A stretch of DNA of 50,337 nt from Candidatus Acidiferrales bacterium (GTDB taxonomy: Bacteria; Acidobacteriota; Terriglobia; Acidiferrales; UBA7541): NCBI GenBank assembly GCA_030037315.1, contig JASHRM010000158.1:1-50337 (forward strand), in the 5' to 3' direction. Made by a program: the position numbers and the translations under genes. Position 1 is the stretch's first letter. Each line of letters starts with the position of its first letter. The notes below the pieces were generated by a model that was not told where the DNA came from, did no database searches, and saw only the letters and a list, made by a program, of their open reading frames with translations. This document shows positions 3,851-28,131 of the stretch, piece after piece.

Positions 3851-4315
3851 ATGATCGGCTTAATCTCAGATACGCACGGATTGCTGCGCGACGAAGCGCT
3901 GCGCGCGATCTAGGGATCGGAATTGATTATTCACGCGGGCGATGTGGGCGGTCCGGAAGTTCTGGAAGCGCTGCAAAAAATCGCACCAGTAATTGCCGTG
4001 CGCGGAAACGTGGATACGGACGGATGCGGCAAGACACTTCCCTTCAGAGCTGTGGCCGAGACTGGCGGCACGAATATTTATGTGGTCCACAGAATCGAAG
4101 ACCTCGACATCAATCCGGCGAGCGCGGAAATGAGAATTGTGGTGAGCGGGCATTCGCACAAGCCGGGCCGGTCGGAAAAAGGCGGCGTGCTTTACGTCAA
4201 TCCGGGAAGTGCTGGCCCTCGACGTTTCAATTTACCAATCAGCGTGGCGCAGCTTGATTTGACCGTTACACCGTGGGCCGTGAAATTCATCCAACTGATG
4301 GATGGACGTTCGTGA
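3851..4315 (+). pseudogene. YfcE/MJ0936-like metallophosphoesterase with an in-frame TAG
   Basis: Read from ATG 3851, the frame gives a complete small calcineurin-like phosphoesterase except for one stop codon, TAG at 3911-3913 (codon 21). Metal-site motifs lie on both sides of the stop: SDTHG before it, and IIHAGDVGG, AVRGNVD and SGHSHKPGRS after it. Downstream of the stop the frame is intact to TGA 4313-4315, which overlaps the ATG of pgl. The family length is about 155 residues, matching 3851-4315. Initiation at TTG 3923 could yield 130 residues but would lack the DTH metal ligands, so it is unlikely to be active. The homologous position is usually Gln or Arg, so a single C-to-T change could explain the TAG. 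A sequencing error or recent inactivation are both possible. Confidence 0.75.
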
Positions 4316-5046
4316 TGAAACTGAATATCCGAGTTTTTCCGAATCTCGACACGTTGAGCCACAGCGCGCTGGATGCGCTTTTGCGAATCATGGACGAAGC
4401 GATCCGGGAGCGGGGGCGCTTTGCCGTTTCGCTTTCCGGAGGGCACACGCCAGCGAAACTTTATTCGCTATGGGCGCAGACCGAGAAGCAAAAAGCGCGG
4501 ACAGATTGGGACTGCGTACACCTTTTCTGGGGTGACGAACGCTACGTTCCGCACACCGATCCATTGAGCAACTACCGAATGACGAACGAGGCCCTTATTT
4601 CTCACGTGCCGATTCCGGCGGGAAACGTTCATCCGATGCCGGGGCCGGAACATTTTTCGACTGCTGAAGCGGCGGCCGAGGCGTATGAATCGGAGTTGCG
4701 GAAATTTTTCACCGGGGCAGCTCCGGCATTCGATCTGCAACTGCTCGGGCTTGGAACGGAAGGACATACAGCGTCCCTCTTTCCGGGCTCACCAGCGCTG
4801 GATGAACGCGTGCGTTGGGTCGTCGCCGTGACGGCGCCAGCAAATCCTCCGCAACGGCTTACGGTCACCCTGCCGGTCCTCAACTGCGCGAGGAACACGT
4901 TTTTCCTGGTTGCAGGGCCGGATAAGCGTGAGATCATCGCGGCACTCAGAAACGAGCCAACGCCTCAGGCCAGCGAATATCCAGCGGCGCGCGTTCAGCC
5001 TGCCGGAGGACCCTTGTGGCTCCTGGATCAGGCGGCCGCAGGTTAA
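4315..5046 (+). CDS. pgl: 6-phosphogluconolactonase
   Basis: Hydrolyses 6-phosphogluconolactone, the step before Gnd in the oxidative pentose-phosphate pathway. The 243-residue protein has the DevB/NagB-fold signatures AVSLSGGHTPAKLY (phosphate loop), FWGDERYVPHTDPLSNYRM, GLGTEGHTASLFPG and RLTVTLPVLN. Length is normal. The chosen ATG overlaps the stop of the upstream yfcE-like frame (TGATG), suggesting translational coupling; an in-frame upstream start at 4273 would add 14 residues inside the neighbour. If the TAG in the neighbour stops ribosomes early, coupling could be weakened. Confidence 0.93.
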   Translation: MKLNIRVFPNLDTLSHSALDALLRIMDEAIRERGRFAVSLSGGHTPAKLYSLWAQTEKQKARTDWDCVHLFWGDERYVPHTDPLSNYRMTNEALISHVPIPAGNVHPMPGPEHFSTAEAAAEAYESELRKFFTGAAPAFDLQLLGLGTEGHTASLFPGSPALDERVRWVVAVTAPANPPQRLTVTLPVLNCARNTFFLVAGPDKREIIAALRNEPTPQASEYPAARVQPAGGPLWLLDQAAAG

Positions 5047-5264
5047 GCCGTTTTTGCCCGAAACTTACCGCCGTTAGAGTGCGTCCAATCGGTTAGAACC
5101 TTCGGTGAAGTGCCTCAACCGCGCGAGAAGCAGCCGATAGATTGGTGGAGCGCAGCTAAGACGACGCGTTATCATAGACTTCAGCCTTATTGAGTCTGGA
5201 TTATTAGCTGCTTCTTTGCCTCGTGAGGACTTCAGCTCGACACAAGACCGAGGAACCGCAATTG

Positions 5265-6380
5265 ATGAATAGGATTTTCAATCGTCTCGCAATAGCTCTG
5301 GCCATATCCGCGGCGATTTTGACCGTAGGCTGCACCCCGAAGACCGCTCAAACCGCCTCGATTTTCGCCGTGCCGGTTACCGTTGCGAAGGCCGTTGAGA
5401 AAACCGTTCCGATCGAACTAACGGCGATCGGCTCGGCCGACGCGTATTCCACCGTTTCGATCAAGGCTCAGGTCAACGCGGTGCTCGACGAGGTGCACAT
5501 AAAAGAAGGGCAGTTCGTCCAAAAAGGCGAATTGCTTTTTACGCTGGATGCGCGGCCGTTCGAGGCGGCGCTCGCGCAGGCACAGGCGACCCTGGCGCGC
5601 GACAAGGCGCAGGCCGAACTCAATAACGTGCAGGCGCAGCGCTACGAGGCGCTGTACAAGGCGGGCGTTGGATCAAAAGAACAGTTCGACACGATGAGCG
5701 CGAACGCGGACGCGCAAGAAGCCGCCGTACGCGCTGACCAGGCTGCCGTGGTGGCAGCGCAGCTCCAGCTTGATTACTGCAAGATTTATTCGCCCATTGA
5801 CGGGCGTACCGGCGCGCTGCAGGTTTATCCCGGAAACCTCGTGAAGCAGAACGACGTGCCGGTGCTGATCGTGATCAATCAGGTGACGCCAATCTTCATC
5901 GACTTTTCGATTCCTGAGCAGTACCTCGGCAGCGTGCAGAAATTCATGGCGCGCGGGAGACTGAGCGTCGAGGCGACTCCCTATGGGGATACGAAGCCTG
6001 AGACGGGCTATTTAACCTTCGTCGACAACTCGGTTGATAACACCACCGGCACGATCAAACTGAAGGCGACTTTCGAGAATGCGGATCACCGACTATGGCC
6101 GGGGCAATTCTCAACCGTGCTGCTGCGGCTGGCAGAAGATGAAAATGCCACTGTCATACCCAGTGAAGCCGTGCAAACGGGTCAAAAGGGCGATTTCGTT
6201 TATGTGGTGAACTCCACCAAAAACGCTGAACAGCGCGTGATAAAAGTTGGGCGCATCGTGGGGCAGCAAACAGTGATCCTGAGCGGCGTTCAGCCCGGCG
6301 AAACCGTGGTCACTGACGGCCAACTGCGTTTGATCCCCGGCATCAAAGTGCAGATTATCAACGAGAATTCCGGAAGCTGA
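5265..6380 (+). CDS. RND efflux periplasmic adaptor (membrane-fusion protein), lipoprotein
   Basis: Adaptor subunit that links an inner-membrane RND pump to an outer-membrane channel. The N terminus is a hydrophobic signal ending in LTVGC, consistent with a lipobox, so the protein is probably anchored by a lipidated Cys. The body shows the HlyD/AcrA order: a lipoyl half (VSIKAQVNAVLDEVHIKEGQFV), a helical hairpin rich in Ala/Gln (LAQAQATLARDKAQAEL), the second lipoyl half (IYSPIDGRTGALQVYPGNLV) and beta-barrel and membrane-proximal segments. Start ATG 5265 has AGGA upstream; an in-frame GTG at 5223 would add 14 residues before the signal. It is nine bases upstream of its pump. No TolC-type gene is nearby. 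Confidence 0.9.
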   Translation: MNRIFNRLAIALAISAAILTVGCTPKTAQTASIFAVPVTVAKAVEKTVPIELTAIGSADAYSTVSIKAQVNAVLDEVHIKEGQFVQKGELLFTLDARPFEAALAQAQATLARDKAQAELNNVQAQRYEALYKAGVGSKEQFDTMSANADAQEAAVRADQAAVVAAQLQLDYCKIYSPIDGRTGALQVYPGNLVKQNDVPVLIVINQVTPIFIDFSIPEQYLGSVQKFMARGRLSVEATPYGDTKPETGYLTFVDNSVDNTTGTIKLKATFENADHRLWPGQFSTVLLRLAEDENATVIPSEAVQTGQKGDFVYVVNSTKNAEQRVIKVGRIVGQQTVILSGVQPGETVVTDGQLRLIPGIKVQIINENSGS

Positions 6381-6389
6381 TTTTTCTCC

Positions 6390-9300
6390 ATGAATATCGC
6401 TGAACCATTCATTCGCCGCCCGATTATGACGACGCTCGTCATGGCGGCGATCCTGATTTTCGGAGTTATCGCCTATCAGTCGCTGGCGGTCAGCGATCTT
6501 CCGAACGTCGACTTCCCCACCATTCAGGTTTCGGCGAGCTTGCCAGGGGCGAATCCGGACACGATGGCGGCCGCAGTGGCCACGGTGCTCGAAAAGCAAT
6601 TTTCCACGATCGCCGGCATCAACTCGATGACGTCGACGAGCACGCTCGGCGCCACGAGCATCACTTTGCAATTCGATTTGAGCCGCAACATAGACGGCGC
6701 CGCGCAAGATGTTCAGGCTGCGATTGCGCGTGTGCAAGGTCAGTTGCCGCCGAACATGCCGAGCCCGCCGACATTCCAGAAAGTGAATCCAGCAGACCAG
6801 CCGGTTTATTTTCTGGCGTTGAGTTCCAACACCCTGCCGATTTCCACGGTGGATCAATACGCGGAAACGTTGCTCGGGCAACGCATTTCGATGGTGAAAG
6901 GCGTGGCGCAGGTGCAGGTGTTCGGGTCGCAGAAATACGCTGTGAGGATTCAACTCGATCCGCAGGCGCTGGCGGCGCGGCAAATCGGAATCGACGAGGC
7001 AACAGCCGCGGTGCAAAACGCCAACGTCAATTTGCCGACCGGCACGCTTTACGGAGAGAAGCAGGCCTTTGCGGTGCAGGCAAACGGCCAGTTGACGCGC
7101 GCCGCGCTATACCGGCCGCTGATTGTGGCTTATCGAAACGGCTCTCCGGTAAGGCTCGATGAGCTGGGGAGCGTTACCGACAGCGTCCAGAACAATAAAA
7201 TTTCGAACTTTTACAACGATGAGCATGCCGTAATCCTGGCGATCCAGCGGCAACCCGGCACGAACACGGTGGAAGTCGTCGACGGAGTGAAGAAAATCCT
7301 GCCGCAGTTTCAGGCCATTTTGCCGCCGTCGGTAAACATGGTGGAGATTTACGACCGTTCCGCCCTCATTCGCGAATCGGTAAACGACGTGAAGTTCACG
7401 CTGATGCTGGCTGTCTGCCTAGTCGTGATGGTGATTTTCCTTTTCCTGCGGAATCTTTCCGCCACGGTGATCCCCAGCATCGCGCTGCCCATGTCAATCG
7501 TCGGCACGTTTGCGGTGATGTATCTGCTGAATTACACGCTCGACAACTTATCGCTGATGGCACTGACGCTCTCGGTGGGGTTCGTTGTCGATGACGCGAT
7601 CGTGATGCTGGAAAACATCGTGCGGCACATCGAAATGGGCGAAGGAGTCATGGAGGCCGCGCTCAAGGGATCGAAAGAAATCGGATTCACCATCGTTTCG
7701 ATGACGCTGTCGCTGGCGGCCGTTTTCATTCCGGTGCTTTTCATGGGCGGAATTATCGGACGGCTGCTGCACGAATTTTCCGTGGTGATCATGATGGCGG
7801 TTCTGGTCTCCGGATTCGTGTCGCTGACGCTGACGCCGATGCTTTGCAGCCGGTTCGTGCGATCGCACCACGGCGAGAAACACAGCTCGGTCTACATGTC
7901 GCTCGAGCGGTTCTTTGACAATCTGCTGAGAAAATACGATACCAGCCTGCAATGGTCGCTACGCCATCGCGTGCTGGTGATGCTGATCGCGACGGCGATT
8001 CTGGGGATTACCGCGTACCAATTCGTCACGATCCCGAAGGGCTTCCTGCCGGAGATTGATGCGTCGAGTTTGCAGGGTTATACGCTGGCGGCGCAGGGGA
8101 TTTCGTTCGATGCGATGAAGGAGCACCAGCTGGAACTGAACAAAATCCTGGTGGCCGACCCGAACCGCAAAGGATTTTTTTCGAGCTTGGGCACCGTCGG
8201 CGGCAGCGCCAATTCGGGGTTCATTTTCATGCACCTGAAACCCCCTTCGGAACGGCCAAAGGTGCCCAGCAAGGAAATGACGCTGCTGATCCATAAGTAC
8301 GGCGGCGTGCCGGTGGTGGGAAGCATCCTGCGAGCAATTGCGCCTCTCACTTGGCATCATCCCGATATCAACGAAGTCATCCAAGAGCTGCGAGGAAAAT
8401 TGCAGGGCATCCCCGGGCTTGCCGTCTACTTGCGAAATCCGCCGCCGATTCAGATTGGCGGACAGGTGACCAACAGCCCCTATCAGGTAACGCTGCAAAG
8501 TCCCGATACCGAAGAGCTCTATCGCGTCGCAACCGATTTCGAGCAGAAGATGGAAAAGCTGCCAGCGCTTCAGGATGTGACCAGCGACTTGCAGATCAAA
8601 AATCCGCAGGTGAACGTCAATATCGATCGCGATAAAGCCTCGGCGCTCGGCGTTTCGGCAGAACAAGTAGAAGACGCGCTCTATACGGCGTACGGCGAAA
8701 GGCAGGTTTCGACGATCTACGCGCCCAATGACGAATATTGGGTGATTATGGAGCTCGAGGATCAGTATCAACGAAATCCTAACGCGCTCTCTCTGCTTTA
8801 CGTTCGTTCGACCAACGGCACGCTGGTGCCGTTGAATGCCGTTGCCAGCTTGACGACGAGCCTCGGCCCGCTAAGCGTGAACCATCTGGGGCAGCTTCCC
8901 GCAGTCACGGTTTCGTTCAACCTGAAACCCGGCTACGTGATCGGCGAGGCCGTAAATGAGGTAAACGACCTGGCGCGAACCTTGCCCGCCACAATCACTA
9001 CGCAATTCCAGGGCAACGCGCAGGCATTTGAAGATTCGCTGAGCGGCCTTGGCATCCTGCTGGTGATTGCAATCCTGGTGATTTATATCGTGCTGGGAAT
9101 CTTGTATGAGAGCTTCATTCATCCGCTGACGATTCTTTCCGGCCTGCCTTCGGCGGCATTCGGCGCGCTGCTTACGCTGGAGATCTTCGGCTACGGGCTC
9201 GACCTATACGGTTTCGTCGGAGTGATCATGCTGATTGGAATCGTGAAGAAAAACGCGATCATGATGGTCGACTTCGCGATCGCCCGCGAGCGCGAAGGGC

Positions 9301-15635: not shown

Positions 15636-18600
15636 GTGGCGGTCAGCGATGCGCTCATTGGGCAGATCGTTTCTCACTACCGCATCATTGAGAAGTTGGG
15701 CGGCGGCGGGATGGGAGTTGTGTACAAGGCAGAGGACGTAAAGCTCCGCCGACCCGTAGCACTGAAATTCCTGACGTCTGATTTGATCGGCGATCGCGCG
15801 GCCCTGGAGCGGTTCGAACGGGAAGCCCAAGCTGCATCAGCCCTGAATCATCCTGCCATTTGCACGGTTTATGAATGCGGCGAACACGCCAATCAACCAT
15901 TCCTTGCGATGGAGATGGTCGATGGATGTTCGTTACTCGCATTCCGCGAACGCAATCCGTCGATCGAATCCGTCAGAAACTTATTCAATCAGATCGCGAT
16001 GGCACTCGCTGTAGCCCACAGCGCCGGAATCGTTCACCGCGACATCAAGCCCGAAAACGTGATGGTAAGGAACGACGGCTATCTGAAGCTGATGGATTTC
16101 GGCCTCGCTCGATTTACCAGCCGCGCTTCGGAATCCACTGTCTTGACGTTACCCGGAACCGTGATCGGAACGGTTCGCTACATGTCTCCCGAACAAGTGC
16201 GCGGAGAAGACGTGTCCAACGCTTCAGACATTTTCTCGCTAGGGATTTTGATGTACGAGTTCTTGGCGGGGCGCCACCCCTTTGCCGCTTATTCATCAGC
16301 GGAAACCATGAGCGCGATACTGTCGGAGATTCCTCCCGCTCCCTCTCAGTTGAATCGCGAAATCTCACCCGCCATGGACGGCCTGATTCAAAAGATGCTG
16401 AACAAGGATCCGCAATTGCGGCCGACGGCGCCTGAAGTCTGCTCGGCTTTGGAGAGTGCGCTGATCACAAAGCCGGGTCATGTGCCAGGTGCCAGGGCCC
16501 GGCACGCATCCGAACTGGGCCGGGAGAAAGAACACGCTGAACTTTGGAAGGCATACCGTCATGTCGCTGAAGGTCGCGGACTTTTGGCCTGCCTCTCCGG
16601 TGAGCCCGGAATCGGCAAGACCACAATCGCTGAAGGATTTTTCGAAGAGCTCGCCATCACCGGCGAAACCTGTCTCGTGGCGCGAGGGAGATGCTCGGAA
16701 AGGTTTGCGGGTTCCGAAGCCTATCTGCCCCTACTGGAGGCCCTGGACGGCCTGTTGCAGGGGCCATCTCAGGGAACGGCGATTCGAGCCATGAAAACGC
16801 TTGCTCCCGCCTGGTTTGCGCAGGTCGCTGCGGCAGAAGCCGCCAGAGGAGACCAGCAGCCGGCGCAGACGGTGACGCAGGAGCAACTGAAGCGGCAGAT
16901 GGGAGCGCTGCTGCGAGAGCTATCGCGCACTTCGCCCGTAATTATTTTCCTCGATGATCTGCACTGGGCGGATACGGCGACGATCGATCTGCTTGCCTAC
17001 CTTGCGGCGAAGTTCGACGAGTTGCGGTTGCTCTTGATCGTCACCTATCGGCCGTCCGACCTCGGCGTGGTGAAGCATCCATTCTTGCCACTGAAATTAG
17101 ATCTTCAGGCGCGCGGCAAATGCAGAGAAATAGAGGTTGGCTTTCTCACTCTCCCCAAGATCGAATCGTATTTGGCATCGGAGTTTCCTGGATCGAAGCT
17201 CCCAGCGAGCTTCGCGCAACATCTCCACACACGCACGGAAGGCAATCCCCTGTTCCTGGTGAATTTGGTCGAGGATCTTCGAGATCGCCAGATCATTGCG
17301 CAGCAAGACGGGCAATGGACTCTGCGAGCTCCGCTCGACAGCGCAAACGTTGAGCTGCCCTCCTCGATTCGCAGTCTGATTGAGAGAAAACGAGCGAAAC
17401 TCTCCGAAGAAGACCAGCGTCTGCTCACTGCCGCCAGCGTGCAAGGTTACGAATTCGATTCCACCATTGTGGCGGAGGCCTTGGGACTCGATGTTGCGGA
17501 CGTAGAGGAAAAGTTATCCGCGCTCGAACACGTACATCGCTTTGTCCGAAACGCGGGAGAAGAGGAGTTTCCCGACAAAACGATTTCTTCGCACTATCAC
17601 TTCGTTCACATTCTTTATCAAAACGCCTTTTATGAAGCGCTTTCCCTCGCGCGCCGGCGTTCCCTCAGCGCCAAAGTGGCTCAATTCCTCGAGCAACACT
17701 ACGATTCGGACTTGACCCACGTCGCGATCCAGCTTGCGATGCTCTATGAAGCTGCGCGGGAGTTCGCGAAATCTTCCCGTTATTTTTTGCTTGCCGCCAG
17801 AAACGCCGCGCGCCTCTCGGCGCATCACGAGTCCGTCAAACTCGCCCGCCGCAGCTTGGAGCAAGTGAAATCGCTCCCGGAAGGCGAAGAGCGCATGAGA
17901 CGGGAGCTTAGTATTCAGAATGCGCTTGGATCGTCGCTGTTTCTTATCAAAGGCTACGGGGATGCCGAAGTCGAGCAGACCTTCCGACGCGCGGAGAGTC
18001 TTGCCAATCAAACCGGTGAAGTGAACGAACTCTTCGGGATTCTCCGGGGACTGTGTTTCTATTACGGCGTTCGTGGGCAGCTTTCGGTATGGCGGAACTT
18101 TTCCGGTCAAGTGCTGGAACTAGCAGAGCGAAGCGGCGATCCGGGGCTGCAGGTTCTAAGCTATCACCTGATCGGCGATCTTTATCTTTGGCTTGGCGAT
18201 TTTATCCAGTCGCGCGACTTCCTGCAAAAAGGTATCGGTCTTTATCGTGCGGAACGCGACCGTTCTTTGCCTGAGCGATTCGGAGCCTACGACTTGCTCG
18301 TGGGCTGCCGAATGTTTCTGGCGCACGACCTTTGGTATTTGGGCTATCCCGACCAAGCGCGTGACACAGTAGAAGAAGCGATTCGCTGGGCACGCGAGCT
18401 CAAGCACGCCTACAGCTTGGCTGCTGCATCAGCCCACTGCGCGTGGGTTTACATTCTGCGCCGCGAGCCTCAAATGGTGATGGAACGCGCGCAGGAATGT
18501 TTTCAGGTGTCCACCGATCATGGATTTCCATTTCATGTGGCGCACGCCAAGGCTTTTCGCGGCTGGGCGCTCTCCGAACAAGGCGAGGTCGAACGCGGAA

Positions 18601-19055
18601 TTACGGAGCTGCAAGAGGCGATGGAGCTTTACCGCGCAGCTGGAGCCATCGTGGAGCTTCCTTTCATGGCATTGCTGTTGGCGAGCGCGCTTGCGAAGAC
18701 GAAGCGATTCGATCTTGCCCTAAGAACGCTTGAGTCGGCATTGGACGGCTTCGACGGTTCTCCCTTATTTTGCGATGCCGAACTCGCCAGATGGAAAGGG
18801 GATCTGGTCTTGGCGCAAGGAGGCGAGACCGAGCAGGCTGAGTCTTATTTCCGCGGAGCTTTGGACATTGCGCGTCGTCAAAACGCCAAATCTTTGGAAT
18901 TACGCGCTGCGTTCAGTCTCGGCCGTGCTGTTACCAGCGAGAAACGAAAATCGGAGGCCAAACAGCGGCTTACGGAAATTTATTCGCAATTCTCTGAAGG
19001 TTTCAACACACCCGACCTCGTAGAGGCAAGGACTGCGTTGAAATCTCTTGGCTAA
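15636..19055 (+). CDS. Ser/Thr protein kinase fused to AAA ATPase and TPR repeats
   Basis: A 1139-residue cytoplasmic signalling protein. Residues 14-270 form a PknB-type kinase: Gly loop LGGGGMGVVYKA, catalytic Lys in VALKFL, HRDIKPEN with catalytic D136, DFG with D154, and the MSPEQ activation end. Residues 290-600 carry a signal-transduction ATPase: P-loop SGEPGIGKTT with K328 and Walker B FLDDLHW with D440-D441. The remainder is a long run of TPR-like helical repeats. This kinase-ATPase-TPR order is known from PknK-like and adenylate cyclase-like regulators. The start is GTG 15636; the kinase fold begins 15 residues later, so no longer start is needed. No transmembrane segment is seen, so a cytoplasmic signal is expected. 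The ligand is unknown. Confidence 0.9.
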   Translation: MAVSDALIGQIVSHYRIIEKLGGGGMGVVYKAEDVKLRRPVALKFLTSDLIGDRAALERFEREAQAASALNHPAICTVYECGEHANQPFLAMEMVDGCSLLAFRERNPSIESVRNLFNQIAMALAVAHSAGIVHRDIKPENVMVRNDGYLKLMDFGLARFTSRASESTVLTLPGTVIGTVRYMSPEQVRGEDVSNASDIFSLGILMYEFLAGRHPFAAYSSAETMSAILSEIPPAPSQLNREISPAMDGLIQKMLNKDPQLRPTAPEVCSALESALITKPGHVPGARARHASELGREKEHAELWKAYRHVAEGRGLLACLSGEPGIGKTTIAEGFFEELAITGETCLVARGRCSERFAGSEAYLPLLEALDGLLQGPSQGTAIRAMKTLAPAWFAQVAAAEAARGDQQPAQTVTQEQLKRQMGALLRELSRTSPVIIFLDDLHWADTATIDLLAYLAAKFDELRLLLIVTYRPSDLGVVKHPFLPLKLDLQARGKCREIEVGFLTLPKIESYLASEFPGSKLPASFAQHLHTRTEGNPLFLVNLVEDLRDRQIIAQQDGQWTLRAPLDSANVELPSSIRSLIERKRAKLSEEDQRLLTAASVQGYEFDSTIVAEALGLDVADVEEKLSALEHVHRFVRNAGEEEFPDKTISSHYHFVHILYQNAFYEALSLARRRSLSAKVAQFLEQHYDSDLTHVAIQLAMLYEAAREFAKSSRYFLLAARNAARLSAHHESVKLARRSLEQVKSLPEGEERMRRELSIQNALGSSLFLIKGYGDAEVEQTFRRAESLANQTGEVNELFGILRGLCFYYGVRGQLSVWRNFSGQVLELAERSGDPGLQVLSYHLIGDLYLWLGDFIQSRDFLQKGIGLYRAERDRSLPERFGAYDLLVGCRMFLAHDLWYLGYPDQARDTVEEAIRWARELKHAYSLAAASAHCAWVYILRREPQMVMERAQECFQVSTDHGFPFHVAHAKAFRGWALSEQGEVERGITELQEAMELYRAAGAIVELPFMALLLASALAKTKRFDLALRTLESALDGFDGSPLFCDAELARWKGDLVLAQGGETEQAESYFRGALDIARRQNAKSLELRAAFSLGRAVTSEKRKSEAKQRLTEIYSQFSEGFNTPDLVEARTALKSLG

Positions 19056-19946: not shown

Positions 19947-20552
19947 ATGGCGAGCCGTAGAGAGTTTCTGCAAATAGGCGTTGCAGCTCTCGCTTTGCCC
20001 ATTTCGACGCGCGGCGTTTTGGCGCCGGCGCTAGCCGGATTGGAGACCGAGCCTTCAACGCCGCTTTATAAGGTGATTTACGACGAAAGATTTCCGGCGA
20101 GCCGCGCGTTCGCGGAGGAGTCCACGCGTTTCGGCGCGGAAATCCACGCGATCAAGGGCGATATCACGGATTTCTGGTATCACGACCTTTACTACCGCTG
20201 GAAGGAAAGCCCCGTGGCGATCGCCGGCCTCACGGCGCATGGCCCGATTTTCTGCATGGAAAGGCTCGCGTGGGACAATCGAATGCGCGTGGTATTTCGC
20301 GCCGATCACCGTTATCGCGAAGACGGTTCAATTGAGCACGCGCTTTCAGGCCCCGCGAATATGCTCCGCCAGGCTGCTGAATTGCGGGACGCGGACAGCG
20401 ACTGGACCACCGGCGTAGCGAACCTGGTGACTCACGTTCCCTTGAGCCGGGCGCAAACTTCGCAGACGAACATTGTGGCATCCACAGCGAAACATCCGGA
20501 CGATCCGGAACACCTCATTTCCTGGGTCATCGCTTCCGTCAAGCGAGCGTAA
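19947..20552 (+). CDS. Tat-signal protein of unknown function, first gene of the flavocytochrome cluster
   Basis: A 201-residue protein. The N terminus SRREFLQIG matches the twin-arginine consensus (S/T-R-R-x-F-L-K), followed by a hydrophobic stretch ALALPISTRGVLAPALA with a likely cleavage site near APALAG. Tat substrates are folded before export. The mature part of about 165 residues (KVIYDERFPASRAFAEE, DITDFWYHDLYYRW, HGPIFCMERLAW) has no domain that I recognise and no cofactor motif. The start ATG 19947 has AAGG five to eight bases upstream. It sits 27 bases before the first flavoprotein. Because the flavoproteins lack signals, this protein could act as a Tat escort; this is a hypothesis. 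Confidence 0.65.
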   Translation: MASRREFLQIGVAALALPISTRGVLAPALAGLETEPSTPLYKVIYDERFPASRAFAEESTRFGAEIHAIKGDITDFWYHDLYYRWKESPVAIAGLTAHGPIFCMERLAWDNRMRVVFRADHRYREDGSIEHALSGPANMLRQAAELRDADSDWTTGVANLVTHVPLSRAQTSQTNIVASTAKHPDDPEHLISWVIASVKRA

Positions 20553-20579
20553 GCCGAAAGTTTCGGTCAGGAGCGCGGA

Positions 20580-22220
20580 ATGAAAGTTCCACCTGGCGTA
20601 AGCACGAGCGATTTTTCCGAAGCGCTGCGGCAATTTGAGGAAGTGGTCGGCAAAGAATGGGTTTTCACCAGCGATGAAGACGTCGCGATGTATCGCGACG
20701 CGTATTCTCCTTTCTATGGCGAGGCGGATGAGCTGGTCGCGTCCGCAGCCGTCGCTCCCGATGGAGTGGAGCAGGTCCAGAAAATCGTAAGAATCGCGAA
20801 TCAGTACAAGATTCCGATCTACACGATTTCGACCGGAAAAAATCTGGGCTATGGCGGCTCCGCACCCTGTTATTCGGGCAGCGTTGTGCTTGATCTGAAG
20901 CGCATGAACCGCATTCTCGAAGTGAACGAGAAGAATGCGTACTGCCTTGTCGAACCCGGCGTCAGCTACTTCGACCTCTATCGCTACATTCAGGAAAAAG
21001 GAATCAGGCTGTGGGTGGACGTCCCCGATCCCGGCTGGGGCAGCCCAGTCGGAAATGCGCTGGATCGCGGCGGCGGGTATTTATTGCCGCAGTTTCGGAA
21101 TCATTTCGATTCTCATTGCGGAATGGAAGTGGTGCTGGCGAACGGCGAAATCCTGCGCACGGGCATGGGCGCTCTGCCAGGCGCGAAGACGTGGCAGGAG
21201 TACAAATCGGGCTTCGGTCCGTGGATCGATGGGGTTTTTTCGCAGTCGAATTTCGGCGTGGTGACGAAGATGGGATTCTGGATGTGCCCCGCGCCCGACT
21301 CGTATCAAGTTGGCACGGTTACGGTGCCGAAGTACAACGACCTGACTCAGCTGATCGATATTCTTGGATATCTCGAGAACACCGGGTGTACGAACGGCAT
21401 GCCGTTTTTGGGCAGCCCGATGCTCGCGCGAGGACCGATCGGCGAGCAAGGGCCTCTGGCCGATCCGGAGCTGACGGCGCTGCTCAATGACGAGAACGGA
21501 CCCGTGCCAGAAGAGATGGACGCCTACGCCGAGAAAAAAGGCGTTCACCAGTGGAGCTGCACCGTCAGCTTTTACGGCGGACCGCAGGCGAATGCCGGCA
21601 ACTGGGAATTTGCGAAAGAGAAGTTTTCCGCGATTCCGGGCGCGAAATTCACGGACGGCGGCGCGTACAAGCTGCCGCTAACCCCCGAAGTGCAAGCGAA
21701 ATTCAATCTGCCGCAATTCGGAATTCCCAGCTTGCAGATGTTTTCAATCGGCGCGCGGTCGGCGATCAATCCGACTCCGGGCGAGGGCCACATTTGGTTT
21801 TCGCCAATTATTCCGCGAACCGGCGAGGCAGTTTTCGAGGCCAATCGCGTTTTCCGGCAGGCGGCAAAGGAACTTGGCCTGCCCGTGCCGCCGTTCAGCC
21901 TGCCGACTTGCTATTGGGAGCGCGCGTTCATTTTCCTTTTTGGGTTCCCGATTACGCACGATCCGGAGACGAACAAGAAGAATCGGAAGGCGTTCCAGCA
22001 ACTGGTGAAAATCGCGGCAGAGCACGGCTGGGGTGAATACCGCACCGCGCCCGCGCATCAGGCGGCGGTGATGGACACATACTCCTTCAACAATCACGCG
22101 CTGCTGCGTTTCCACGAAACGTTGAAGGACGCCGTCGACCCGAATGGAATTTTGTCGGCTGGGCGCTACGGAATTTGGCCGAAACATCTGCGCGACTCAC
22201 ACACATGGAGAAGTTCATGA
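20580..22220 (+). CDS. VAO/PCMH-type FAD-dependent dehydrogenase, copy 1
   Basis: A 546-residue flavoprotein of the vanillyl-alcohol oxidase / 4-cresol dehydrogenase class (FAD-binding 4 plus a C-terminal substrate domain), predicted to oxidise para-alkyl- or para-hydroxymethyl-phenols. It has the FAD loop STGKNLGYGG, with Y91 matching VAO Tyr108. D150 in DVPDPGWGS matches VAO Asp170. H404 in GHIWFSPI aligns with the FAD-linking His422 of VAO. E486-Y487-R488 (GWGEYRT) aligns with VAO Tyr503/Arg504. No signal peptide is present. Differences from its sisters: Gly at position 47 where the other three have a His, and an insertion in GGGYLLPQFRNHF. The stop overlaps the start of the first cytochrome gene (ATGA). 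Confidence 0.88.
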   Translation: MKVPPGVSTSDFSEALRQFEEVVGKEWVFTSDEDVAMYRDAYSPFYGEADELVASAAVAPDGVEQVQKIVRIANQYKIPIYTISTGKNLGYGGSAPCYSGSVVLDLKRMNRILEVNEKNAYCLVEPGVSYFDLYRYIQEKGIRLWVDVPDPGWGSPVGNALDRGGGYLLPQFRNHFDSHCGMEVVLANGEILRTGMGALPGAKTWQEYKSGFGPWIDGVFSQSNFGVVTKMGFWMCPAPDSYQVGTVTVPKYNDLTQLIDILGYLENTGCTNGMPFLGSPMLARGPIGEQGPLADPELTALLNDENGPVPEEMDAYAEKKGVHQWSCTVSFYGGPQANAGNWEFAKEKFSAIPGAKFTDGGAYKLPLTPEVQAKFNLPQFGIPSLQMFSIGARSAINPTPGEGHIWFSPIIPRTGEAVFEANRVFRQAAKELGLPVPPFSLPTCYWERAFIFLFGFPITHDPETNKKNRKAFQQLVKIAAEHGWGEYRTAPAHQAAVMDTYSFNNHALLRFHETLKDAVDPNGILSAGRYGIWPKHLRDSHTWRSS

Positions 22221-22606
22221 ACGCGCGCGTCGTGATCATCATAGGGGCAGTGCTACTTTCTTTCGGTGCGCAACGATGTAACGGTCAGGAAGTCTCGCGC
22301 TCCTCGGCGTGGACCCGGACGACAATTTCAGGCCAAGGCCAGCCGAAAGGCTACGTGCAATTCGAGAATTACTGCTCGATGTGCCACGGGCCGGGGCCTG
22401 GACAACCGGGCACGATGGCGCTGCAGGCGAAATACAAAGGCGCGGAGCCGGCTCTGCTTGCGGACCGGACGGACTTGAACGGTGCGGTGATAAAAGCCTA
22501 TGTGCGCAACGGCATCTCGATCATGCCGATTTTTCGCAAGACGGAAATCAGCGACGCAAATCTGGATCTGATTGCGGAATACCTGACGCGCAACAATAAG
22601 AAATAA
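22217..22606 (+). CDS. Small exported c-type cytochrome, partner of copy 1
   Basis: A 129-residue class I cytochrome c. The N-terminal signal is NARVVIIIGAVLLSFGAQRCNG. The haem site is CSMCH with C53, C56 and H57. A C-terminal Met in NGISIMPIF is the probable sixth ligand. This is the architecture of PchC, the cytochrome subunit of 4-cresol dehydrogenase, which takes electrons from the flavoprotein in the periplasm. The start ATG 22217 has GGAG six bases upstream and overlaps the flavoprotein stop; a start at 22205 is an alternative. The last 20 residues (FRKTEISDANLDLIAEYL then RNNKK) are nearly the same as in the second cytochrome, indicating duplication. Confidence 0.9.
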   Translation: MNARVVIIIGAVLLSFGAQRCNGQEVSRSSAWTRTTISGQGQPKGYVQFENYCSMCHGPGPGQPGTMALQAKYKGAEPALLADRTDLNGAVIKAYVRNGISIMPIFRKTEISDANLDLIAEYLTRNNKK

Positions 22607-22631
22607 GAATTTTCCGAAAAGGGAGCCCTGC

Positions 22632-24212
22632 GTGAAAGTTCCTCCCGGCCTGAGCGCCAAGGATTTTTCCGACGTAGTCAAGCAATGGACTGAAATCGTA
22701 GGCAAGGAATGGATCTTCACGTCCGATGAGGATGTGGAGATGTATCGCGACTACTATTCCCCGCTATGGCATGAGGATAATGACCCGGTTCCCTCCGCCG
22801 CGGTTGCACCCGATGGCGTCGAGCAGATTCAGGCGGTCCTGAAGGTCGCAAACGAATACAAGGTTCCGCTCTGGACGATTTCCACGGGAAAAAATCTGGG
22901 ATACGGCGGTTCGGCGCCGCTGTTGAGCGGAAGCGCGGTGCTCGATCTAAAGCGGATGAACCGCGTTCTCGAAGTGAACGACAAGAATCACTACGCGCTA
23001 GTCGAGCCGGGCGTCAGCTACTTCGATCTTTATCGCTACATTCGCCAACACAACCTCAAGGTGTGGCTCGATCCGCCCGATCCGGGATGGGGCAGCCCCG
23101 TCGGCAATTCTCTCGACCGCGGCGGCGGGTACACGCCGATGCGCGACCACTTCGATAATCACTGCGGAATGGAAGTGGTGCTGGCAAATGGCGAAGTGAT
23201 TCGCACCGGCATGGGCGCTCTGCCCGGATCTAAGACATGGCAGCAGTACAAATATGGCTTCGGGCCATACATCGACGGCATGTTTTCGCAGTCGAACTTC
23301 GGCGTCGTGACAAAAATGGGATTTTGGCTCCTGCCGGAGCCTGAGGCTTATCTTTCCGGTACAGTCACGGTGCCGAAGCACGATGACATCTACAAGATGG
23401 TGGAAGTGTTCGCCTACCTGGTGGATTCCAGCATTGTGCAGGCAACGACGCTGATCACGAGTCCGCTGTGGTACGTGCGCAATGATCCTGAGCTGACGGG
23501 GATTCGCGAACACGGCACCACGCAGGATCTCGACGCATACGCGGCGCGAAAAGGTGCGGCGTATTGGAGCGTTTCGCTGCCGTTTTACGGGCCGGCCAAA
23601 GTCGTGGCGGCGCAATGGGAATTCGCGAAGGAAAAATTCTCGGCGGCGATTCCAGGTGCGAAATTTCTGGACGGCGCTTCCTACCGGTTCCCCTTGAGCG
23701 ATGAGCAAGTGGCAAAGATGGCGGATACCGTTCCGTTCGGGATTCCGAGCTTGTCGATATTTTCGATGATCGGGAAGAACATCGGGCACTTGGGATTCTC
23801 CCCGATCATTCCGATGACGGGCGAAGCGGTGCTCGAATCGCAGCGCGTATTTACCCAGGTTTATAGGGACCTCGGGTCGCCCGAAGGCGAGGCGGCCTCG
23901 TTTCCGGTGTTCTCATTTTTCGCGCGTGCGTTCGTGAACATTTACCTTTTCCCCATCGAGCACGACGTGGAAAAGAATCGCAAGACGCGCGAGATTTACC
24001 GGCGGTTGATCAAGGAATCGGCGGCGCGCGGCTGGGGTGAATACCGCACACACACAACGTTTATGAAAGACATCGCCGAGACGTATTCCTTCAACAATCA
24101 TTCCCTGCTGCGATTTCACGAGATGATCAAGGACGCGGTTGATCCGAACGGCATTCTTTCGCCGGGCAAGTCCGGCATCTGGCCAAAACGCATGAGGACG
24201 GCAAAGGCATGA
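22632..24212 (+). CDS. VAO/PCMH-type FAD-dependent dehydrogenase, copy 2
   Basis: A 526-residue flavoprotein. Catalytic-site residues line up with the other copies: Y91 (GYGG), D150 (DPPDPGWGS), H386 (GHLGFSPI; VAO His422 position) and E470-Y471-R472 (GWGEYRT). In addition it has H47 in SPLWHE, close to the place where VAO has His61. The start is GTG 22632, preceded by GGGAG. No export signal. The stop overlaps the ATG of the second cytochrome (ATGA), so flavoprotein and cytochrome should be made together. It belongs to a compact run of same-strand genes with short or negative spacing. Confidence 0.88.
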   Translation: MKVPPGLSAKDFSDVVKQWTEIVGKEWIFTSDEDVEMYRDYYSPLWHEDNDPVPSAAVAPDGVEQIQAVLKVANEYKVPLWTISTGKNLGYGGSAPLLSGSAVLDLKRMNRVLEVNDKNHYALVEPGVSYFDLYRYIRQHNLKVWLDPPDPGWGSPVGNSLDRGGGYTPMRDHFDNHCGMEVVLANGEVIRTGMGALPGSKTWQQYKYGFGPYIDGMFSQSNFGVVTKMGFWLLPEPEAYLSGTVTVPKHDDIYKMVEVFAYLVDSSIVQATTLITSPLWYVRNDPELTGIREHGTTQDLDAYAARKGAAYWSVSLPFYGPAKVVAAQWEFAKEKFSAAIPGAKFLDGASYRFPLSDEQVAKMADTVPFGIPSLSIFSMIGKNIGHLGFSPIIPMTGEAVLESQRVFTQVYRDLGSPEGEAASFPVFSFFARAFVNIYLFPIEHDVEKNRKTREIYRRLIKESAARGWGEYRTHTTFMKDIAETYSFNNHSLLRFHEMIKDAVDPNGILSPGKSGIWPKRMRTAKA

Positions 24213-24562
24213 ACATGAAAAAAGCTGCTGTGCTGCTGATATTGATGTTGACTGCCGCGACATTCGCGTGGGCCGGGCCGCCACAGGAGAAGGACTCACA
24301 ACTCGAGCGCGGGCACAAGGTCTACGACAAGTGGTGCTTTCCGTGCCACGGCACGGGCGTCGGCAAGCCGGGCACGGACGCGCTGAAGGCTCGCGGGCAA
24401 AATCCCGCAGTGCTTGAAGAACGCACCGATCTCACGGCGGCATTGATCAATACAGTGGTTCGGCACGGCGTGGGATTCATGCCCGTTTTCCGCAAAACGG
24501 AAATCAGCGACGCCGAACTCGACGCAATTGACGCTTATTTGATGCGCAACAATAAGAAGTAA
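24209..24562 (+). CDS. Small exported c-type cytochrome, partner of copy 2
   Basis: A 117-residue cytochrome c with a Lys-rich, hydrophobic Sec signal (KKAAVLLILMLTAATFAWAG). The haem motif is CFPCH with C43, C46 and H47, and the probable Met ligand is in GVGFMPVF. It shares with the first cytochrome the spacing of the haem and Met motifs and the C-terminal ...FRKTEISDAELDAIDAYL pattern ending RNNKK. It is presumably the electron acceptor of copy 2, and perhaps of copies 3 and 4, which have no cytochrome gene of their own. It starts inside the stop codon of the flavoprotein. Confidence 0.9.
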   Translation: MNMKKAAVLLILMLTAATFAWAGPPQEKDSQLERGHKVYDKWCFPCHGTGVGKPGTDALKARGQNPAVLEERTDLTAALINTVVRHGVGFMPVFRKTEISDAELDAIDAYLMRNNKK

Positions 24563-24565
24563 ACG

Positions 24566-26143
24566 ATGCGACTTCCCCCAGGCGTTAGCGCCGGCGATTT
24601 CTCTGCCGCGATCAAGGAACTCGAAAGCGCGATCGGCAAAGAATGGGTCTTCACGTCCGACGAGGATGTGAATCTTTATCGCGATTCGTACTCTCCTTTC
24701 TGGCACGAAAATCAGGAGCCGATTCCCTCAGCCGCCTTTGCTCCGGACAGCGTGGAACAAGTGCAGGCGGTCGTTAGGATCGCGAATCGTTACAAAATTC
24801 CGCTGTGGACGATTTCGACAGGGAAAAATCTCGGCTATGGCGGTTCAGCTCCGCTGCTGAACGGCAGTGCGGTGCTCGATTTGAAGCGCATGAATCGAGT
24901 GCTCGAAGTGAACGACAAGAATCACTACGCGCTCGTCGAGCCCGGCGTGAGCTACTTCGATCTCTATCGCCATATTCGCGACAGAGATTTGCCGGTGTGG
25001 ATCGATCCACCCGATCCGGGGTGGGGCAGTCCGATGGGCAACGCGCTCGAACGCGGCGGAGGCTACACGCCGATGCGCGACCACTTCGACGCTCACTGCG
25101 GGATGGAAGTCGTTTTGCCCGATGGCGAGCTGGTTCGCACGGGCATGGGAGCGCTGCCAACCGCGAAAACCTGGCAGCAATATCGCTACGGCTTTGGTCC
25201 GTACATGGATGGAATGTTTTCGCAATCCAATCTTGGCGTCGTGACAAAAATGGGCTTTTGGCTGCAGCCGCAACCGGATGCGTACCTTTCGGGCAGTGTG
25301 ACCGTGCCGAAGCATGATGACTTGACGCCACTTGTCGAAATTTTCGCGAACCTTATGAATTCCGGGGTCGTGCAGGCGACAACAACGGTCGTAAGCCCAC
25401 TCGCGTATTCGCGCGATCCCGAATTGGTGAAGTTGCGCGCGAGCGGCTCGACCAGGGATCTGGAGGACTACGCAGGGCAAAAAGGCATCGGCTACTGGAG
25501 CGTTTCCCTGCCCCTTTATGGCCCGGAGAAAGTGATCGCGGCGCAGTGGGAATATGCGAAACAGAAATTTTCGGCGGCAATTCCCGGCGCGACGTTTCGC
25601 GATGGCGCGTCGTACAAATTCCCGTTGACGGAAGAGCAGCTCACGAAAATTGTGAATCCTGTGCCGTTTGGCGTCCCGAGTTTGCAGACATTTTCGATCG
25701 GCGGCCCGAAAAGCCAGGGACACATGTGGTTTTCGCCGATTATTCCGATGACGGGCGAAGCGGTGATCGAAGCGCAGTCTGTATTCGATAAAGTGGCGCA
25801 GAGTCTGGGCTACGTGACCGGTACGACGGGCTTTCCGATCTGGAACTTTTTCGCGCGCGCGTTCGTGATCATTTATTTCTTCCCGATCGAGCACGATATC
25901 GAAAAGAATCGCCGCAGTCGCGAAATCTTCCGGCGCCTCATCAAAACCGCCGCCGAGCATGGCTGGGGCGAATATCGCACGCATACCGCGTTCATGGGCG
26001 ACATCATGGACGCCTACTCGTTCAACAATCATTCGCTGCTGCGCTTCCACGAAACGGTGAAAGATGCGCTCGATCCGAACGGCATTCTCTCCGCGGGAAA
26101 AAACGGCATCTGGCCAAAGAGCATGAGAAAGGCGGGGGCATGA
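24566..26143 (+). CDS. VAO/PCMH-type FAD-dependent dehydrogenase, copy 3
   Basis: A 525-residue flavoprotein starting three bases after the second cytochrome gene. Active-site residues: Y91, D150 (DPPDPGWGS), H386 (GHMWFSPI), E469-Y470-R471 and a His in SPFWHE near position 47. Closest to copy 2 in the substrate half (PMRDHFDAHCGMEVV, IIPMTGEAV). No signal peptide, no own cytochrome. Its stop overlaps the ATG of copy 4 (ATGA). The sequence is intact with no frameshift or early stop, so it is presumably functional. Confidence 0.87.
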   Translation: MRLPPGVSAGDFSAAIKELESAIGKEWVFTSDEDVNLYRDSYSPFWHENQEPIPSAAFAPDSVEQVQAVVRIANRYKIPLWTISTGKNLGYGGSAPLLNGSAVLDLKRMNRVLEVNDKNHYALVEPGVSYFDLYRHIRDRDLPVWIDPPDPGWGSPMGNALERGGGYTPMRDHFDAHCGMEVVLPDGELVRTGMGALPTAKTWQQYRYGFGPYMDGMFSQSNLGVVTKMGFWLQPQPDAYLSGSVTVPKHDDLTPLVEIFANLMNSGVVQATTTVVSPLAYSRDPELVKLRASGSTRDLEDYAGQKGIGYWSVSLPLYGPEKVIAAQWEYAKQKFSAAIPGATFRDGASYKFPLTEEQLTKIVNPVPFGVPSLQTFSIGGPKSQGHMWFSPIIPMTGEAVIEAQSVFDKVAQSLGYVTGTTGFPIWNFFARAFVIIYFFPIEHDIEKNRRSREIFRRLIKTAAEHGWGEYRTHTAFMGDIMDAYSFNNHSLLRFHETVKDALDPNGILSAGKNGIWPKSMRKAGA

Positions 26144-27720
26144 AACTTCCTCCCGGAGTCAGTGCGAGCGATTTCGCCGCGGCGCTCGAAAAGTTCGCGG
26201 CCGTTGTCGGCAAAGAGTGGGTGTTCAGCTCGCAGGACGACGTCGACCTCTACCGCGACTCCTACTCGCCGCTCTGGCACGAAGAGGACGAACGCGTGCC
26301 GTCCGCTGCCGTAGCTCCGGACGGTGTGGAGCAAATTCAGGCGATCGTCAAAATCGCGAACACCTACAAAATTCCTCTGTGGACGATTTCGACGGGCAAG
26401 AACTTGGCCTACGGCGGATCTTCTCCCGCGCTTTCAGGCAGCGTAATTCTCGACTTGAAACGCATGAATCGCATCCTGGAAGTGAACGACAAGAATCACT
26501 ACGCGCTGGTCGAGCCGGGCGTGAGCTATTTCGATCTCTACCACTACATTCAGGACCACAAGCTGAACGTCTGGATCGATCCCCCCGACCCAGGCTGGGG
26601 CAGTCCGATGGGTAATTCCCTCGAACGCGGCGGCGGCCGCACGCCGATGCGTGACCACTTCGCGTCGGTGTGCGGGATGGAGATCGTGCTTGCCAATGGC
26701 GAAGTGATTCGAACCGGCATGGGCGCGCTACCGGAATCGAAAACTTGGCAGCAATACAAGTACGGATTTGGACCCTACGTTGACGGCATGTTTTCGCAAT
26801 CAAATTTCGGCATCGTGACGAAAATCGGCATCTGGCTGATGCCTTCACCCGAAGCGTATCGCGATGGAGTGGTGTCCGTGCCCAAGCACGACGACCTGAT
26901 TCCGTTTGTCGATACGCTCTCGTTCCTGATTGACTCGAGCGTCGTGCGCGGCACGATGCTGCTCGATAGTCCCTTGCTGAGTTACCGCGCGTCGCAGGGC
27001 GGCAGCGTGCTCGATATGCCCGGCGGCCCGACGGTGGCCGAAACTGAAAAGCTTGGCCAAGAAAAGGGCCTCCCGTACTGGTCCATGGAGCTGCATTTCT
27101 GGGGACCGCCGAATGTAATCGACGCGCAGTGGGAATACGCCAAGGAAAAATTCTCGGCGATTCCGGGAGCGACATTCAAGGACGGGCGCTATTACCACTT
27201 CCCCATGGAAGTGAAGGATACGGACGCGGTGCCCTGGGTCGCGCTGGGGATTCCGAGTCTTTCGGTTTTCGGTTTGATTGCCGGCGGAAACGGCCACATG
27301 GACTTCTCGCCGATCATTCCCATGCAGGCGGAAGCGGTCTTCGAAGTTTTGAGCGCGTTCGGAAAAGCCTACGCCGATCTCGGCATCGAGCCGAAAAACC
27401 AATTTTTCTCCCTGCCCTGGTGCTTTTTTCCGCACTCGTTCGTGCTGCTTTTCGGATTTCCGATCGCGCACGACGTTGAGAAAAACCGCGAGAGCCGCAG
27501 GGCGTTTCAGCGGCTTGTGGAAGTCGCAGCCGAGCACGGCTGGGGCGAATACCGCACGCACGTGGCTTTCATGGACGCGGTGTCAAACGTCTATTCGTTC
27601 AACAATCACGCGCTACGCCGGCTGCACGAGCGAGTCAAAGACGCGATCGACCCGAACGGGATTCTTTCGCCGGGCAAAAGTGGCATTTGGCCGAAGCGGC
27701 TACGGCAGCAGCGAGCTTAA
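26140..27720 (+). CDS. VAO/PCMH-type FAD-dependent dehydrogenase, copy 4 (divergent)
   Basis: A 526-residue flavoprotein. It keeps Y91 (in NLAYGGSSP, where the others have NLGYGG), D150, H386 (GHMDFSPI) and E470-Y471-R472, plus H47. It differs in several pocket positions: GGGRTPMRDHFASVCGMEIV in place of GGGYTPMRDHFxxHCGMEVV, and LPWCFFPHSFVLLFGF near the C terminus. These point to a different substrate. It starts inside the stop of copy 3 and ends 12 bases before the VOC gene. No signal peptide. Confidence 0.87.
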   Translation: MKLPPGVSASDFAAALEKFAAVVGKEWVFSSQDDVDLYRDSYSPLWHEEDERVPSAAVAPDGVEQIQAIVKIANTYKIPLWTISTGKNLAYGGSSPALSGSVILDLKRMNRILEVNDKNHYALVEPGVSYFDLYHYIQDHKLNVWIDPPDPGWGSPMGNSLERGGGRTPMRDHFASVCGMEIVLANGEVIRTGMGALPESKTWQQYKYGFGPYVDGMFSQSNFGIVTKIGIWLMPSPEAYRDGVVSVPKHDDLIPFVDTLSFLIDSSVVRGTMLLDSPLLSYRASQGGSVLDMPGGPTVAETEKLGQEKGLPYWSMELHFWGPPNVIDAQWEYAKEKFSAIPGATFKDGRYYHFPMEVKDTDAVPWVALGIPSLSVFGLIAGGNGHMDFSPIIPMQAEAVFEVLSAFGKAYADLGIEPKNQFFSLPWCFFPHSFVLLFGFPIAHDVEKNRESRRAFQRLVEVAAEHGWGEYRTHVAFMDAVSNVYSFNNHALRRLHERVKDAIDPNGILSPGKSGIWPKRLRQQRA

Positions 27721-27732
27721 GAGGCGCGGACG

Positions 27733-28131
27733 ATGGCAAATTCACGAATCCATGCCTTTCTGATGTTTGAAGGCAAAGCGGAGGAAGCGATGAATTTCTA
27801 CGTATCGCTTTTTCCGGACGCGAAGGTGATTCAATTGAAACGCTGGCCTGCGGGCGGACCGGGCGCTGAAGGCTCCGTGATGCGCGCGAGCTTTTCGATC
27901 GGCGGACAGACGATCATGTGCACCGACAGCTATGTGAAGCACGATTTCACGTTTACGCCGGCTACTTCCCTATTCGTCGAATGCGAATCGGAGGGCGAAC
28001 TCGATCACCTCTATGCGGCGCTGGTGGCCGATGGCAAGGCATTCATGCCGCTGGGCTCTTACGGATTCAGCAAGAAATTCGGCTGGGTGCAGGATCGCTT
28101 TGGCGTTTCGTGGCAGCTGAATCTGGCGTAA
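27733..28131 (+). CDS. VOC-family protein (PhnB-like)
   Basis: A 132-residue glyoxalase/bleomycin-resistance/dioxygenase-fold protein of the PhnB type, beginning SRIHAFLMFEGKAEEAMNFY and ending KKFGWVQDRFGVSWQLNL. Many VOC proteins are metal enzymes, but PhnB-like members often lack a complete metal site and their role is unknown. It lies 12 bases after the last flavoprotein in the same direction and may belong to that operon. Confidence 0.85.
   Translation: MANSRIHAFLMFEGKAEEAMNFYVSLFPDAKVIQLKRWPAGGPGAEGSVMRASFSIGGQTIMCTDSYVKHDFTFTPATSLFVECESEGELDHLYAALVADGKAFMPLGSYGFSKKFGWVQDRFGVSWQLNLA

Follow-up and report, generated by a model that had tools for sequence, protein, structure and literature searches.

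The window analysed here is a stretch of 50,337 nucleotides from a Candidatus Acidiferrales contig, and between its positions 19947 and 28131 it holds eight genes in the order T, F1, C1, F2, C2, F3, F4 and VOC (Table 1), all of them where the first-pass annotation had placed them. All four flavoproteins match FAD_binding_4 (E 5e-31 to 3e-28), and they are 58-72% identical to one another in pairwise comparison. Both cytochromes match Cytochrome_CBB3 and contain a CxxCH site, and their signal peptides were judged by eye. The junctions had been described as mostly ATGA overlaps or gaps of a few bases; they are indeed close or overlapping (27, -13, 25, -4, 3, -4 and 12 nt between successive genes), but the overlap of -4 occurs at only two of the seven. 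The eight genes are a probable operon. No sigma-70 consensus promoter was found for the cluster, this consensus being uninformative for the phylum. The close named relatives of the source genome are Candidatus Acidiferrales and Terriglobia MAGs, and the genome encodes TatC.

Table 1. Genes of the cluster, with their positions in the window
Gene	Position	Strand	Product	Match or motif
T	19947-20552	+	Protein of 201 aa with a twin-arginine signal, in no named family; putative carrier for the export of F1-F4	SRREFLQ motif
F1	20580-22220	+	VAO/PCMH-family flavoprotein with dehydrogenase signature; nearest solved structure 9H40	
C1	22208-22606 (or from 22217)	+	Monohaem cytochrome c; signal-like sequence at the N-terminus	PF13442 E 4e-12, CSMCH
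F2	22632-24212 (GTG start)	+	Flavoprotein, recent paralog of F3	
C2	24209-24562	+	Monohaem cytochrome c; signal peptide of Sec-like type	PF13442 E 2e-14, CFPCH
F3	24566-26143	+	Flavoprotein, 72% identity with F2	
F4	26140-27720	+	Flavoprotein from an ortholog group of its own; pocket position 392 (EUGO numbering) is Asp	
VOC	27733-28131	+	VOC-fold PhnB/YjdN-like protein; doubtful member of the system	PF06983 E 7e-37

We considered VOC as a core component and rejected it, since among the other loci fetched only L050 has it adjacent to a flavoprotein gene. Upstream of the cluster (window 15636-19055) lies a serine/threonine kinase gene with AAA and TPR regions, and the related locus L021 also has a kinase-TPR gene upstream. 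The same genome encodes a fifth, more distant flavoprotein (L157, G000:C16:12000-15295), which is cut by the contig end and whose relatives (L159) are ordered F-C-T.

Flavoprotein Signature and Predicted Electron Acceptor

On EUGO numbering, F1-F4 all carry Tyr, Asp, Pro, His, Tyr and Arg at positions 91, 151, 152, 390, 471 and 472, in an alignment that also recovered the signature residues reported for EUGO, VAD and PCMH (PMC7617285). The FAD_binding_4 domain and the phenolate-binding Tyr91, Tyr471 and Arg472 make them 4-phenol oxidoreductases, and the FAD-linking His together with the Asp-Pro at the N5 site makes them VAD-like, with an FAD that is probably His-linked. They are not PCMH proper: the position of Tyr384 in 1DII is not Tyr, His occupies the 390 site, and Asp is found at N5. 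The cluster had been annotated as being of the 4-cresol-dehydrogenase type, and this needs correcting in detail, as the four proteins carry the signature of VAD and 9H40 and not the tyrosyl-FAD of PCMH. The flavocytochrome character of the system is seen in the adjacent c-type cytochromes, with their CxxCH sites and export signals.

In a maximum-likelihood tree (quick search, with support by SH-aLRT only), F1-F4 and PDB 9H40 fall in one fully supported clade of 56 rows; F1 and F2 both have 9H40 as their best match in the PDB. Because of the VAD-group signature and of the clade shared with 9H40, the electrons of F1-F4 are predicted to go to cytochrome c rather than to O2. The Marinicaulis flavus vanillyl-alcohol dehydrogenase, which has the same His and Asp-Pro signature, is inactive with O2 (PMC7617285). 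F1 and F4 each belong to their own ortholog group found in other acidobacteria, the group of F1 being that of the acidobacterial "first" copies, and F2 and F3 are a recent pair.

As an observation from other bacteria, the sphingomonad loci L075-L096 contain, at about 14.5-16.2 kb, a second flavoprotein and cytochrome, and the catalytic and FAD-linking residues of this flavoprotein have been lost (with signatures such as YGNAIL and HGNAAV).

Pockets and Predicted Substrates

The pocket positions 166 and 427 are occupied in F1-F4 by Gly and Ser/Gly, which are smaller than the Val and Ile of EUGO or PCMH, and residue 392 varies, being Trp in F1 and F3, Gly in F2 and Asp in F4. Small residues at 166 and 427 have been tied to di-ortho-methoxylated substrates (PMC11148156). 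From these small residues at the pocket entrance, we infer that the substrates are bulky lignin-type phenols that differ per copy, and F1-F4 probably oxidise such large phenols outside the inner membrane. The gene neighbours of the Pseudomonas homologues name no substrate. The idea of an expanded set of cytochrome-linked 4-phenol flavoproteins with different pockets, in one probable operon, is retained from the first reading of this DNA.

Some of the four could also be non-catalytic partner subunits in mixed complexes instead of four enzymes for four substrates. The PCMH of Geobacter, said to have been described by Johannes in 2008, is reportedly an alpha, alpha-prime, beta2 complex in which one of two flavoprotein isoforms is inactive, and flavoproteins outnumber cytochromes in the present cluster as well. 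We nevertheless find this unlikely, as the FAD-linking His, the phenolate-binding Tyr, Tyr and Arg and the N5 pair are kept in all four proteins, and the pockets of F1 and F4 are mostly conserved inside their own ortholog groups.

Expansion at One Genomic Site

The genes immediately downstream of the cluster in other genomes are waaA and lpxK, or waaA. The eight-gene order, whose search across acidobacterial genomes had been suggested, is not conserved: the relatives carry at this site 1, 2, 3, 4 or 6 flavoproteins with 1-3 cytochromes. The arrangement is T-F-C in L025 and T-F-C-F-C in L054, there are three flavoproteins in L026, four with two cytochromes in the window, and six with three cytochromes in L021 (G009:C115). 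Each of these five loci has a single T.

The T Protein and Its Relationship to X

T begins with a twin-arginine signal (MASRREFLQIGVAALALP) and matched no Pfam and no NCBIfam family. It carries the only recognisable Tat signal of the cluster, F1-F4 being called signal-peptide-free from the position of the domain start: no more than about 3 residues precede the domain in them, which is also the case in the cytoplasmic EUGO. After a low-confidence N-terminal segment, the model of T shows an alpha/beta mature domain of 160 residues, with pLDDT mostly above 90, a conserved core and a C-terminal motif. No invariant Cys or His was found among the sequences of the family, and the model had no significant fold match (Foldseek best E about 0.03; VIA-align best Z 5.4), so that the fold points to no function for T.

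In Pseudomonas loci whose flavoprotein is 80-81% identical to 1DII, a gene that we call X lies between the cytochrome and the flavoprotein (C-X-F), which is the place of pchX. Profile-profile comparison of T and X gave a probability of 96.7 (E 3e-10). Without the signal peptides, the homology is weak, with a probability of 55 or 87, E 1e-4 or 4e-6 and a score of 34 or 43 depending on the cut; 30 column shuffles, set against the second cut (E 4e-6, score 43), reached a maximum score of 17.6. The models of T and X have the same order of secondary-structure elements over the core, although that of X is moderate (pLDDT 69), and Foldseek found no significant match for it. T and X are probably one family.

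Distribution of T and X Across Flavoprotein Loci

The first-pass annotation had listed the Tat protein without giving it a role, but T turns out to be the most consistently conserved extra component of these loci, reaching well beyond Acidobacteria. At the thresholds used, T is present in exactly those 13 of 61 acidobacterial relatives that carry F, and within the genus the two occur together in 12 of 20 genomes (Fisher 8e-6). A T/X profile match was found in 92 of 116 dehydrogenase-type loci vs 0 of 5 oxidase-type loci, counts in which many loci are related and so are not independent events, the oxidase-type control consists of five loci only, and the T profiles take in the signal region. The Tat test was passed by 78 of 79 T/X proteins vs 10% of control ORFs, which makes it a permissive test. 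Tree correlation is r 0.88 for T and F; being no higher than that for C and F (0.91), it may reflect shared operon descent.

In Pseudomonas, the PCMH-type X profile matches 16 of 299 genomes, all of them among the 22 that bear F, and X lies beside F. Four of the six remaining F-bearing genomes have T-type genes (G064, G096, G346 and G063, the T of the last belonging to that genome's other F locus), a Tat-signal ORF adjoins F in G132, and G313, whose F is of the oxidase type, lacks both T and a cytochrome there. Most of the T-less dehydrogenase loci were checked genome-wide, and T occurs elsewhere in every checked genome (in G369 through a weak match, E 4e-5) except that of the Helicobacter locus L063. 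The plasmid loci L110, L112 and L113 have adjacent RR-start ORFs that the T/X profiles missed or scored weakly, and L043, L050, L051, L090 and L121 were judged only by a shared genome record name, truncation or an adjacent IS element.

Several single loci deserve mention. L063 (Helicobacter burdigaliensis, Campylobacterota) has an F-C pair belonging to the 9H40-like clade, and next to it a Tat-signal ORF of 125 aa that is too divergent for the T profile. In L121 (Paraburkholderia aromaticivorans pBN3, 3968-6344), a flavoprotein with a shortened N-terminus lies just downstream of a transposase gene of the IS5 family, and the fetched stretch yielded no T. L066, from a MAG labelled Klebsiella pneumoniae, is ordered T-F-C; its F clusters with those of uncultured Gammaproteobacteria, and the label may be wrong for the contig.

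These distributions bear on whether F1-F4 could be cytoplasmic oxidases using O2, with the cytochromes and T as incidental neighbours. True oxidases with the same FAD-linking His do occur in the wider VAO family, but the N5 site has Pro, and not Leu, Val or Ile, in all of F1-F4, and the signature thus argues against the O2-only reduction that would have refuted the first reading. Moreover, the five oxidase-type loci, which include a Rhodococcus locus with an F 92% identical to eugenol oxidase, lack T, and four of the five lack a cytochrome, which makes the oxidase explanation highly improbable. The exception is L120 (Novosphingobium sp. ES2-1 plasmid p1, 4567-6524), in which an nsVAO-like flavoprotein directly follows a cytochrome c gene, with no T. 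This flavoprotein has T at 151 and V at 152 and lacks the FAD-linking His, and the locus blurs the split between oxidase and dehydrogenase types.

Proposed Export of the Flavoproteins

The haem of c-type cytochromes is attached in the periplasm, after export, and F1-F4 have no signal peptide, so the flavoproteins would have to leave the cytoplasm folded. We propose, with a probability of about 0.68, that the cluster encodes periplasmic flavocytochrome 4-phenol dehydrogenases whose flavoproteins are exported folded on the Tat carrier T. Each flavoprotein would fold and bind FAD in the cytoplasm, where T would bind the folded flavoproteins and take them across via the Tat translocase; a single T would serve all four. 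The side chain at the para carbon of the phenol would give up a hydride to the flavoprotein, which would pass the electrons to cytochrome c, with C1 and C2 as acceptors shared by F1-F4. The best reading of T is that of a Tat hitchhiker carrier, by analogy with the gamma subunit of FAD-glucose dehydrogenase, a known case, with solved structure, of a flavoprotein paired with a Tat hitchhiker (PMC6719666).

T is larger than a bare carrier requires, and its confident mature domain could have another periplasmic role. T might even be exported alone, as a periplasmic assembly or maturation factor or a third structural subunit, with the flavoproteins leaving by another route. This is rather unlikely, given that no other export signal is seen on F1-F4, that no invariant Cys or His suggests a cofactor, and that the carrier of FAD-glucose dehydrogenase likewise has a stable folded domain (PMC6719666).

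p-Cresol methylhydroxylase is periplasmic according to a 1985 report, as cited in PMC12724174. The cytochrome BpfB, through its signal peptide, has been held responsible for the export of BpfA, and the same pattern was noted for PchCF and PcmIG (PMC12724174, 2025), in a text that makes no mention of twin-arginine. By the same route, F1-F4 would ride out with the cytochromes on the Sec signal peptides that these do carry, which we hold to be quite improbable. Sec translocates unfolded chains, and since haem c is attached only after export, a folded FAD protein cannot ride on the cytochrome; the conserved Tat protein, present also beside bpf genes, would moreover be left unexplained. Between the signal peptide of a cytochrome and a Tat carrier, the latter is the more plausible vehicle for a folded FAD protein. 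Among the papers that we searched, none links PCMH to Tat export.

We are inclined to see in T and X a family of Tat hitchhiker carriers, not recognised before, for cytochrome-linked 4-phenol dehydrogenases (PCMH, Bpf, VAD-like and 9H40-like), and to think that having one carrier per acidobacterial locus allowed the expansion to several flavoproteins with different substrates. The PCMH flavoprotein is periplasmic yet signal-less, and a conserved Tat-signal partner is a direct and testable answer to this. Relatives of T accompany the dehydrogenase class across many bacteria and may be the export route of its signal-less enzymes; if T is indeed a carrier, enzyme engineers are shown which additional gene to co-express. 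The acidobacterial expansion also points to uncultured soil bacteria as probable oxidisers of phenols from lignin.

Comparison with Known Systems

Like the present cluster, PCMH PchCF (1DII) combines a flavoprotein with a monohaem cytochrome c, and its loci (C-X-F) include X, the homologue of T. However, its FAD is Tyr-linked with Ala-Pro at N5, whereas F1-F4 have His and Asp-Pro, it has one flavoprotein per cytochrome, and its identity to the F1-F4 clade is about 30-36%. The Marinicaulis flavus enzyme (8S7P) shares the flavin-site His, Asp and Pro with F1-F4, but it lies on another branch of the tree and has other pocket residues. PDB 9H40, deposited as p-cresol methylhydroxylase, has the clade and the signature of F1-F4 but a different pocket. 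Judging by its description, the clade of pinoresinol hydroxylases in PMC7617285 may be identical with the 9H40 group.

BpfAB of Sphingobium is also made of a flavoprotein and a cytochrome and acts on a bulky phenol, bisphenol F, but it belongs to a different clade, has Ala-Pro at N5 and contains a single flavoprotein per unit. Both copies of the bpf-like flavoprotein and cytochrome genes in L113 (Sphingobium yanoikuyae plasmid pF1) are followed by a gene for a "hypothetical protein" with a Tat signal (1550-2119 and 7976-8545).

Finally, FAD-glucose dehydrogenase of Burkholderia cepacia consists of a small Tat-signal protein, gamma, a flavoprotein that lacks a signal and a cytochrome c subunit (PMC6719666), a combination also seen in T-F-C. 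Going by their descriptions, the two carriers differ, gamma being all-helical with a GMC-type partner, whereas T is predicted to be alpha/beta and has no Pfam match, and T would at most be a parallel solution to the same export.
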